This document shows, piece by piece, positions 34,699-37,771 of a stretch of DNA of 38,205 bases. The notes under the pieces were generated by a model. The model was given only the letters and a program-made list of their open reading frames with translations, did no database searches and had not been told where the DNA came from. The stretch lies in assembly GCA_016235145.1 (NCBI GenBank), contig JACRLV010000070.1:1096-39300 (forward strand), in the 5' to 3' direction. Made by a program: the position numbers and the translations under genes. Within the stretch, counting starts at the first letter, position 1. Every line of letters starts with the position of its first letter. This DNA is from Planctomycetota bacterium. GTDB lineage: Bacteria; Planctomycetota; Phycisphaerae; UBA1845; Fen-1342.

Positions 34699-36705
34699 TC
34701 ACGGCTTTGCGGCTGGGTCGAGCTTCACGTAATCGAGCCCGAACATGTAGGCCTTCACGGCCTTCTCGTTCGCGCCGACTACAGTCGCGGTTAGCGGATT
34801 TTCTCCCGCATTCAGCTCGCAAACGCCAAGATCAATCTCGTCCGTGAGCTTGATGCCTTCGCCATAGAAGTCGATCGGCTCGCCGAGATTCTTGCCGTTC
34901 ATTCCGAGCTGGATGATGCCGTAGTCGCGCGCTTTCAGGCAGCGGATGCGGACGTGGTACGCGCCGGCTTTCTCGACGGGCAGGGCCAGCGTGATATGGT
35001 CGCCGGGCTTCTGGTCGCCATGCCACCACAGGTGCTGCTCGTTGCTGCAACCGTCAATCGACTGCGGCTCCAGCGCCCCCTTGCGATCCAGGATTTTCAG
35101 CGATTCGCCTTCGATCGCGCCGGCGACGCGCGGCGGAACGTAGGGCGGGACGACCGGCACGCGCAGGTCTTCCGGCTTGATGGGTGGGAACTGGTCGACG
35201 CTTCCCGGCCGCGCATACCAGAATGCCGTCGCCGCCATGTCGACTTTGCAGGTCTCGTGCCAATGCCACAGCTCCATGTCGAAGCGGAAATCATGCTTGA
35301 ATGGAATCCGATCGAGGATGTGGTAGCGGTTGACGCACGTGATCCCGTAGTTCCCCGGCCCGTCGACGCGCGGCTGAGAGTGGTACGCGTGCTGGAACAC
35401 GACCGGCCAACACCAGGCGTAGCCGTAGTAATCCTCAGTGCCCGTCCCGAACCAGCTCGGAAACGTCTCGCCGTCAACGTAAATCTTCTCGTCGCCTTCG
35501 CCCCACCAGTGCTTGACCGGGTTCGCGATGTTGAATGCCACGCCGACGAATTGGCCCTGCCCGCTCGTGGTCAGGTAGTTCCAATCGATCATCGGCCGCG
35601 TCGGAACCTGCCAGTCGGACCGCCATTTCGCTTGGAAGTGAAGCGAGCGCTCGGTCCACGTGTAATCGCTCTGATCAACCCGGATCGAGAAATTCAGCGG
35701 CTTTCCGGCGTGATTCACGATCCGCAGTTTCGCGCCCTTTTCAAACGGCATGAACCAGCGCGAATAGAGCTCTCCCGTTGCGGTCACGGTTTGGGGGAGC
35801 GTAGCGAGCGGCGCGGTTCGTCCGATGCACGAAAACAAGTCGCCGATCGGCGCGCGAACGCACGGCCGGCCGTCGAAGTCGATTTCCAGCACCGCCCCGC
35901 GCAGCGCACGCCCCTGCTCGTCATTTTCGAGTCGCAGCGCGATGCCGGTAATCGCCGCCGGACCGGGATATTCAACCTCATACTTCGTCCTTTGGTCTTT
36001 CAAGGTCAGGACGTTCTTCTGATCCAGTGTCGGCGGCGTTGGCGGAGCGGAGAGCGTGGCTGCCGTCTGTTCGATCGCCTTTGCGAGTTTCCTGACGTCG
36101 TCCGAACCGAATGAGCCCACCGCTGTGCCCGGCGGGTACACGCGATAGTCCACGTGGTAGTAGAACCCCGGCTCATCGCTCGTGATCTTGCAATGTTTCG
36201 CGTACGCAATCGGGAAGTAGCTGTTCCAACCCTTGCTGCGTTCGCCCGCGATCGGCTTGGGCACTCCAGGGTACGTGCCGCCGAGCCACTCCGTCATTGG
36301 GCACTCGATCGTCGCCTTCTCCGCGTCGTCCAGGTAGATGCGGATGGTCCCCTTCGGATTGGCCGACCAGATTCGCACGATCGCGCCAGGACCATCCATG
36401 TCCGCCATCACGTGCTCGCGCCGTCCGCCGTGGTCCTCGCCGCGAATGAACTGCCCGGCGTCGCCGTTGGCGAACCAGGTTTTCTGATCTTCGGACGACT
36501 TGCTGGCCCGGTCGTAGCTGGAGAACTGCTTGCACACGAACGGCGGATCGGGGAACTCGGCCAATCCCGCCAAATTTGTCATTTCGTGCAGCAGCGATTC
36601 GGTCGTGACGGTTTGGGCGGCGGCTGAGGCGGCGATCGCCAGCAGCAACGCTCCACAGGCGGCAAGTTCTGGCCAGCAGCGGCAAATACGCATCGGGGCG
36701 ATCAT
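34699..36705 (-). CDS. DUF2961 / GH172-like secreted glycoside hydrolase
   Basis: Signal peptide; DMDGPGAIVRIWSANPKGTIRIYLDD, MPFEKGAKLRIVNHAGKPLNFSIRVDQ, GEGDEKIYVDGETFPSWFGTGTEDYYGYAWCWP. Start at MIAPMRI (cat 36703-36705). Confidence 0.9.
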   Translation of the reverse strand: MIAPMRICRCWPELAACGALLLAIAASAAAQTVTTESLLHEMTNLAGLAEFPDPPFVCKQFSSYDRASKSSEDQKTWFANGDAGQFIRGEDHGGRREHVMADMDGPGAIVRIWSANPKGTIRIYLDDAEKATIECPMTEWLGGTYPGVPKPIAGERSKGWNSYFPIAYAKHCKITSDEPGFYYHVDYRVYPPGTAVGSFGSDDVRKLAKAIEQTAATLSAPPTPPTLDQKNVLTLKDQRTKYEVEYPGPAAITGIALRLENDEQGRALRGAVLEIDFDGRPCVRAPIGDLFSCIGRTAPLATLPQTVTATGELYSRWFMPFEKGAKLRIVNHAGKPLNFSIRVDQSDYTWTERSLHFQAKWRSDWQVPTRPMIDWNYLTTSGQGQFVGVAFNIANPVKHWWGEGDEKIYVDGETFPSWFGTGTEDYYGYAWCWPVVFQHAYHSQPRVDGPGNYGITCVNRYHILDRIPFKHDFRFDMELWHWHETCKVDMAATAFWYARPGSVDQFPPIKPEDLRVPVVPPYVPPRVAGAIEGESLKILDRKGALEPQSIDGCSNEQHLWWHGDQKPGDHITLALPVEKAGAYHVRIRCLKARDYGIIQLGMNGKNLGEPIDFYGEGIKLTDEIDLGVCELNAGENPLTATVVGANEKAVKAYMFGLDYVKLDPAAKP

Positions 36706-36886
36706 CGGTCGGTCTCCATGGCGAGGTGCCGCGCGTGTAGCGGCGAAATGCACGCCGCCGCACTCTACTGCGCGCCGCGGCGAGCGGGCAAGCCGGCCGC
36801 CGGACCACCCGGCTTTACACGCGTCCGCCGGATTGCGATGATCCTCGCGACCCGGCCGTGTTTCCGAGCCGGGCGAAAGGTCCGCG

Positions 36887-37771
36887 ATGCCAGCCCGCGT
36901 TCTCGACGGCAACGCCATCGCCGCGGAAATCCGCAACGAGGTCAGCGCCCAGATTGCGCGGCACGCCGTCGAGCACGGATCGATCAAGCTGAGTTCGATC
37001 CTGCTGGGGGCGAATCCGGCGGCGCTGCTCTATGCGGAATCGCAGAAACGGCGTTGCCTTCAGGCGGGCGTGCAGCACGAATTGGTGGAGCTTCCCGAAG
37101 ACGCCGGGCAGACCGCCCTGCTCGAAACGATCGACCGGCTGAACGCCGACCCCGGCGTGACCGGCATCATGCTGCACCTGCCGCTGCCGGCATGGATCGA
37201 CTCGGCGGCGGCCCAATATCGCATCGACCCGTACAAGGACGTCGAAGGCGTCAACCCGGCGAACATCGGGCTGCTGTTCTACGACGTGCCTCTGATCGCG
37301 CCCTGCACGGCCCTGGCGGTTAACGAGATGATTCATCGCAGCGGCGTGGAAATCCGCGGCGCCCATGCCGTCGTCGTCGGCCAGAGCCGGATCGTCGGGC
37401 GGCCGGTCAGCATGTTCCTGACCACGAACGAGGCGACCGTCACGACCTGCAATGTGCACACGCGCGACCTGAAGCAGCACACGCGCGACGCGGACATTCT
37501 CGTGGTCGCGGTCGGCAAGCCCAAGTTGATCGGCGCCGATCACGTCAAGCCCGGCGCGGTGGTCATCGACGTCGGCATCAACTCCGTCAAGCAGCGCGAC
37601 GCCGCGGGAAACGAAGTGCGCCGCACGGTCGGAGACGTCGATTTCGACGCGGTTTGCGCGGTCGCCTCAGCGATTACGCCGGTGCCGGGCGGCGTCGGGC
37701 CGCTCACCGTGGCGATGCTCTTGCGAAATACGGTCGAGGCGGCGAAGAAACAGCTACACCGCGTGTACTGA
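36887..37771 (+). CDS. folD: Methylenetetrahydrofolate dehydrogenase/cyclohydrolase (FolD) homologue with altered active-site positions
   Basis: Full-length collinear FolD: NPAALLYAESQKRRC, GIMLHLPLP, KDVEGVNPANIG, VVVGQSRIVGRPVSMFL, VAVGKPKLIGADHVKPGAVVIDVGIN, ITPVPGGVGPLTVAMLLRNT. Confidence 0.92.
   Translation: MPARVLDGNAIAAEIRNEVSAQIARHAVEHGSIKLSSILLGANPAALLYAESQKRRCLQAGVQHELVELPEDAGQTALLETIDRLNADPGVTGIMLHLPLPAWIDSAAAQYRIDPYKDVEGVNPANIGLLFYDVPLIAPCTALAVNEMIHRSGVEIRGAHAVVVGQSRIVGRPVSMFLTTNEATVTTCNVHTRDLKQHTRDADILVVAVGKPKLIGADHVKPGAVVIDVGINSVKQRDAAGNEVRRTVGDVDFDAVCAVASAITPVPGGVGPLTVAMLLRNTVEAAKKQLHRVY

Follow-up and report, generated by a model that had tools for sequence, protein, structure and literature searches.

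The closest described systems are the bifunctional FolD enzymes, such as E. coli FolD and the dehydrogenase/cyclohydrolase domain of human MTHFD1, and FolD is treated as a standard bifunctional enzyme. According to one structural study, orthologues show strict conservation of the catalytic residues (PMC3338484). The lysine acts as general acid/base in the cyclohydrolase reaction, the glutamine positions this lysine and the aspartate binds the pterin (PMC3338484, PMC3368264), and in the human protein R173, H196 and S197 hold the 2'-phosphate of NADP (PMC3368264). The published mutants conflict on the need for the catalytic lysine: E. coli FolD K54N has about 19% of the dehydrogenase left with an undetectable cyclohydrolase (PMC5688156), whereas the cyclohydrolase of the silkworm MTHFD K53A mutant is reported to be near wild type (PMC6443876). 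In E. coli FolD Q98H, about 8% of the dehydrogenase and about 1% of the cyclohydrolase activity are left (PMC5688156). Several relatives are known in which the two steps are separated. Yeast Mtd1 (PDB 1edz) is reported to be a dehydrogenase-only, NAD+-dependent FolD relative, according to the secondary accounts of Barlowe and Appling (1990) in PMC11064299 and PMC6443876. The NADP+-using dehydrogenase of Peptostreptococcus productus is described as monofunctional. Acetogens such as Acetobacterium woodii (fhs1-fchA-folD) have separate dehydrogenase and cyclohydrolase genes, sometimes in the same order as found here (PMC10472528, PMC5039349).

The window, i.e., the whole stretch of 38,205 nucleotides analyzed from a planctomycete genome, carries one FolD-type gene. 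The gene was assigned from its ORF, Pfam domains and an AlphaFold2 (AF2) model, and the residues within it by alignment:

36887-37771, + strand: folD, 294 aa, type non-Lys/Glu ("Q/E"); product predicted to be a 5,10-methylene-THF dehydrogenase lacking cyclohydrolase activity
37031-37033, + strand: Tyr49, equivalent to E. coli Tyr50, kept
37043-37045, + strand: Gln53 replacing the catalytic Lys (K54 in E. coli, K56 in human); Gln in 147 of 151 members of the clade
37175-37177, + strand: His97 replacing Gln98 of E. coli; position variable in the clade (Gln, Asn, His and others)
37244-37246, + strand: Glu120 replacing Asp121 of E. coli, the pterin-binding carboxylate; Glu in 151 of 151 members of the clade
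37310-37318, + strand: Ala142-Leu-Ala144 in place of P-x-G of PCTPxG (P143 = A142, G145 = A144)
37382-37384, + strand: Gln166; the residue is Arg in 127 of 128 aligned canonical FolDs and corresponds to human R173, which contacts the NADP 2'-phosphate
37451-37456, + strand: Asn189-Val190 replacing the His-Ser/Thr pair holding the NADP 2'-phosphate (human H196/S197)

The ORF starts with ATG and has a GC content of 0.70/0.43/0.86 at the three codon positions. Its product is 42% identical to E. coli FolD and shares with the bifunctional enzymes the length, the fold and both Pfam domains, PF00763 (104.4 bits, cut-off 32.8) and PF02882 (212.3 bits, cut-off 27). The AF2 model has a pLDDT of 93.8, and its top structural matches are FolD/MTHFD structures with TM scores of 0.85-0.93. 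Tyr50, PLP, KDV and PVPGGVGP are kept, while the lysine of YxxxK, the glutamine of QLPLP and the aspartate of KDVDG, all expected of a bifunctional FolD, are absent. An initial annotation had read by eye a full-length ORF with an intact C-terminal PVPGGVGP, Gln for the catalytic Lys, His for the Gln of QLPLP, Glu for the Asp of KDVDG and PCTALA for PCTPxG. The alignment to E. coli FolD bears out each of these readings as K54Q, Q98H, D121E and PCTPRG to PCTALA, and additionally places Gln, Asn and Val at the equivalents of human R173, H196 and S197, so that the residues for the NADP 2'-phosphate are lost as well. Two of the changed positions, 54 and 98, are those altered in the carolacton-resistant E. 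coli mutants K54N and Q98H (PDB 5o2a, with the same histidine as the window protein; PMC5688156). Those mutants, however, are crippled forms of a canonical enzyme and do not have D121E and PCTA, the compensating changes of the window FolD. Among the 25 NCBIfam models listed in a comparison with those for bifunctional FolD, the best score was 293.4 bits with a cut-off of 421, and all scores were under the cut-off of the respective model. The window protein is a FolD by family but probably not a bifunctional FolD by function. Upstream, and divergent from folD, lies a long gene for a DUF2961 protein (34699-36987, - strand). As annotated, the 5' end of this gene overlaps with the beginning of folD on the opposite strand, so its true start is probably further downstream within the DUF2961 gene. 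Neither this gene nor the unassigned ORF downstream of folD gave any hint of linkage to FchA, the separate cyclohydrolase.

Whether such substitutions are peculiar to one sequence was examined by typing 200 genes from 196 of the approximately 273 Planctomycetota genomes with a FolD, whereby the weakest matches were left untyped. The 279 readable aligned FolDs fall into two types, 128 canonical and 151 Q/E, with no intermediate at the 54/121 pair. All 128 canonical proteins have K54, D121 and P143. All 151 of the Q/E type combine E121 with a residue other than lysine at position 54 (147 Gln, 2 Leu, 1 Ile and 1 His), and 146 of them have Ala at position 143. Thus, loss of K54 and D121E are coupled without exception in the readable genes, and loss of PCTP is coupled almost as tightly, a pattern far in excess of what chance would give. 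Position 98 behaves differently: it is always Gln in the canonical type, but in the Q/E type it is Gln in 68, Asn in 35, His in 24 and other residues in the remainder of the 151, for which reason His98 was excluded from the signature. Of the three residues for which co-variation as a clade signature had been envisaged, the Gln and the Glu thus hold, with the pairing seen in 151 of 151 proteins, while the His does not, since many relatives keep Gln. Several pocket positions beyond these three also differ between the types, and in a tree of 99 proteins calculated with the signature columns removed the Q/E type falls on one side of a single branch (SH-aLRT 96). Yeast Mtd1 is outside this clade as far as tested, and matches the window protein only weakly (E 3.6e-11, compared to 1e-46 or better for bacterial FolDs). 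The branch is likely new to science: a search of the open-access literature found no description of it, and as most subscription papers were outside that search, its novelty is likely rather than demonstrated.

Two observations concern the margins of this survey. Very divergent FolDs, with best E-values of about 1e-10 to 1e-14 against the window protein, are present in genomes G016, G041, G061, G078, G094, G109, G124, G139 and G152 (families f24, f45 and f56). About 20 genomes (e.g., G065, G227 and G240) had no FolD match in spite of good completeness, and several of these have FchA and/or Fhs.

Two explanations can be weighed against the clade. A gene that is decaying or was damaged by sequencing errors, its active-site substitutions being random, has nothing in its favor beyond the substitutions themselves and can be regarded as refuted: 151 sequences from numerous genomes show the same changes, the reading frame is unbroken and has a strong codon-position bias, and the relatives with 57-75% identity are full length. 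It is also highly improbable that the protein is a normal bifunctional FolD whose lost lysine is replaced by the neighboring one of AESQK, located one residue further on (Lys54), a case that the initial annotation had named as fatal to its own interpretation. Only 16 of the 151 relatives have Lys at this position, which in most is occupied by Arg, Ala, Glu or Gln; conservation of a substitute lysine is thus not seen. Moreover, the alignment is gapless inside the helix, which spans residues 44-60 in the AF2 model. The adjacent lysine was, therefore, rejected as a rescue.

A cell whose FolD has lost the cyclohydrolase step needs either another cyclohydrolase or Fhs, which makes 10-formyl-THF from formate. 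For this reason, 294 Planctomycetota genomes were searched for PF04961 (FchA/FTCD_C), Fhs and the tetrahydromethanopterin (H4MPT) cyclohydrolase Mch, and the results were combined with the FolD type in 196 genomes. Among the 79 genomes with only the Q/E type, 34 have FchA without Fhs, 42 have both, 3 have Fhs without FchA and none lacks both. In comparison, the 111 canonical-only genomes comprise 36 with neither, 8 with FchA only, 19 with Fhs only and 48 with both. FchA is thus present in 76 of 79 versus 56 of 111 genomes, with a raw Fisher P of 6e-13 that is too small because the genomes are related to each other. The contrast is sharpest in the genomes without Fhs, where FchA occurs in 34/34 Q/E-only and in 8/44 canonical-only genomes. 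It persists in comparisons by class, by family and within a family, which correct for kinship only in part: in the window's class FchA is present in 12/12 Q/E and 0/16 canonical genomes; per family, in 39/39 Q/E and 11/23 canonical families; and in family f16 the two canonical genomes are without FchA and the two Q/E genomes have it. The three Q/E-only genomes without FchA are drafts of 80-91% completeness and all have Fhs, and three genomes of 99% completeness with a Q/E FolD and without FchA also carry a canonical FolD. Three complete chromosomes contain the Q/E type: in G298 it is the only FolD and FchA is present, G299 has it together with a canonical FolD and FchA, and G300 combines it with three matches to PF04961 as well as a second, partial match to PF00763.

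The genes are also neighbors in some genomes, lying side by side on one strand as fhs-fchA-folD in one (G031) and as fchA-folD in another (G015), as in A. woodii with its order fhs1-fchA-folD (PMC10472528). No FchA close to FolD was found in the flanks, each of 3 kb, of the contig-derived loci examined. Among acetogens, fchA is present in 13 of 14 and absent only from Moorella thermoacetica, whose FolD performs both steps (PMC5039349).

The specificity of PF04961 needs consideration, as about half of the canonical genomes also have a match and many of these are long, FTCD-like ORFs; presence of the domain alone is, therefore, not specific. PF04961 also covers formimino-THF cyclodeaminase. In 36 of the 43 canonical genomes with a listed frame the domain occurs only in long ORFs of at least 400 aa; the ones whose complete sequence was read are FTCD fusions or similar-looking proteins. 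The short, stand-alone form was found in 21 of the 36 Q/E genomes with a listed frame, frame length being no more than a rough guide.

The window's own genome fits this pattern. It has a single FolD, the gene at 36887-37771, and a single PF04961 protein on another contig:

G000:C235:5262-5768, - strand: PF04961 (FchA-type) protein, about 190 aa, from the PF04961 search

No second FolD, Fhs or Mch was detected in this assembly, which is 82% complete, so that these absences are weak by themselves; the related families f2, f8 and f9, with 96-100% completeness, have the same gene set. The question raised at the outset, i.e., whether the genome holds a second canonical folD or an fchA, is answered by one protein of the FchA family and no second FolD being detected, and the label of FolD paralogue does not suit what is the sole FolD found in the 82% complete assembly. 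The best PDB match of the PF04961 protein is the methenyl-THF cyclohydrolase 7vg4. Against the curated FchA equivalog NF045657, it scored 124.9 bits, below the cut-off of 275, and it could thus be a formimino-THF cyclodeaminase.

Two explanations that retain a functional enzyme have to be weighed against these distributions. In the first, the Q/E proteins would still be bifunctional by lysine-independent chemistry, e.g., with Glu120 or His97 activating water, and the link to FchA would reflect histidine breakdown or shared ancestry. The strict conservation of Glu121, equal to that of Asp in the canonical type, and the activity kept by silkworm K53A (PMC6443876) agree with it. However, Q/E-only genomes without FchA are nearly absent, above all with FchA in every one of the 34 lacking Fhs, position 98 is free to vary, and E. 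coli K54N lost its cyclohydrolase (PMC5688156), so we regard this explanation as unlikely. In the second, the protein would serve a different reaction or a different C1 carrier, for example tetrahydromethanopterin, and would not be the folate dehydrogenase of the cell. The further differences in the pocket and the occurrence of Mch in 34 of the 294 planctomycete genomes might be taken to favor this, but Mch is present in just 1 of the 79 Q/E-only genomes and absent from that of the window, the window protein is the only FolD there, and Tyr50, PLP, KDV and PVPGGVGP are kept. The H4MPT explanation was rejected on the near absence of Mch, and the use of a different carrier in general is very unlikely.

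The best-supported reading, which we consider likely to be correct, is a dehydrogenase-only FolD with the cyclohydrolase step handed to FchA. With the folate site, the tyrosine and the Rossmann domain kept, the window protein most likely still oxidizes 5,10-methylene-THF to 5,10-methenyl-THF, as predicted from its sequence. It lacks the lysine that performs the hydrolysis of methenyl-THF to 10-formyl-THF, and this second step is most likely carried out by a separate FchA-type cyclohydrolase, the putative role of the protein encoded at G000:C235:5262-5768 (- strand). Glu at position 121 probably continues to hold the pterin ring, its longer side chain fitting the remodeled pocket. The loss of the residues for the 2'-phosphate suggests the use of NAD+ instead of NADP+; the first of these positions is Arg and the third Ser/Thr in 127/128 canonical proteins each, compared to mostly Gln/His and Ile/Val, respectively, in the Q/E type. 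We infer that the window FolD and yeast Mtd1 work alike. Methenyl-THF also hydrolyzes spontaneously (PMC5688156), which makes an enzyme less necessary and may also blur cyclohydrolase assays. The suggestion of a dehydrogenase-biased or mechanistically shifted enzyme is, overall, supported by the fixation of K54Q and D121E in the clade and the separate cyclohydrolase homologue in the genomes. "Re-purposed" is an unneeded description, since moving the second step of an otherwise unchanged pathway to another enzyme is the simplest reading.

The signature is not confined to planctomycetes. Among 200 Bacillota genomes searched with a Q/E-type profile, 5 of the best 30 matches have it and the other 25 are canonical. 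The five genes nest inside the clade (SH-aLRT of the whole clade 99), and a planctomycete-only trait was, therefore, rejected. All five genomes have a second FolD. In four of them, it keeps Y50, K54, Q98 and D121 and has a changed nucleotide site, with PCTP turned into GVTA or GCTA, GRSNIVG into G[WH]SIE[IV]G and the 2'-phosphate residues into W/H and P. In three of these four, it adjoins the Q/E-type gene. Such tandem pairs are located at loci L330 (1012-1935 and 1961-2848, - strand), L331 and L332, with the two genes of G358 at L333 and L337. Possibly, the two FolDs of such a pair are complementary dehydrogenase-only and cyclohydrolase-only halves. The fifth genome (G317) has no such partner, and its FchA adjoins a third FolD variant with Ala for K54. 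The arrangements agree with a division of labor, as a pattern drawn from five genomes. At L339 (816-1460, then 1486-2349, + strand), the gene directly after fchA encodes a FolD variant in which K54 is Ala, Q98 is Phe and the NADP residues are intact, apparently a separate loss of the lysine beside fchA. Judged by eye from their translations, genes resembling those for NfnA/NfnB or GltD-type oxidoreductase subunits lie near Q/E-type folD at L311 (2639-3850, - strand) and L327 (2503-3848, + strand), and may bear on the cofactor of the Q/E FolD in some Bacillota.

More broadly, we tentatively propose, on a balance falling just short of favoring it, that the Q/E FolDs are a widespread unrecognized dehydrogenase-only class of Planctomycetota and Bacillota. 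The loss of K54, D121E and the change of cofactor would have arisen once, and the class would always rely on FchA, on a canonical FolD or, in some Bacillota, on a tandem paralogue with cyclohydrolase residues and a remodeled nucleotide site. If true, a bifunctional enzyme has been split into two complementary half-enzymes. The Q/E FolDs are a large natural clade that breaks the stated strict conservation of the catalytic residues, and they offer an experiment made by nature for telling residues of the dehydrogenase from those of the cyclohydrolase. Since database models give them bifunctional names, metabolic reconstructions of the phylum would credit these proteins with a step that is probably beyond them, and the clade allows the folate pathway of these bacteria to be tested in a simple way.
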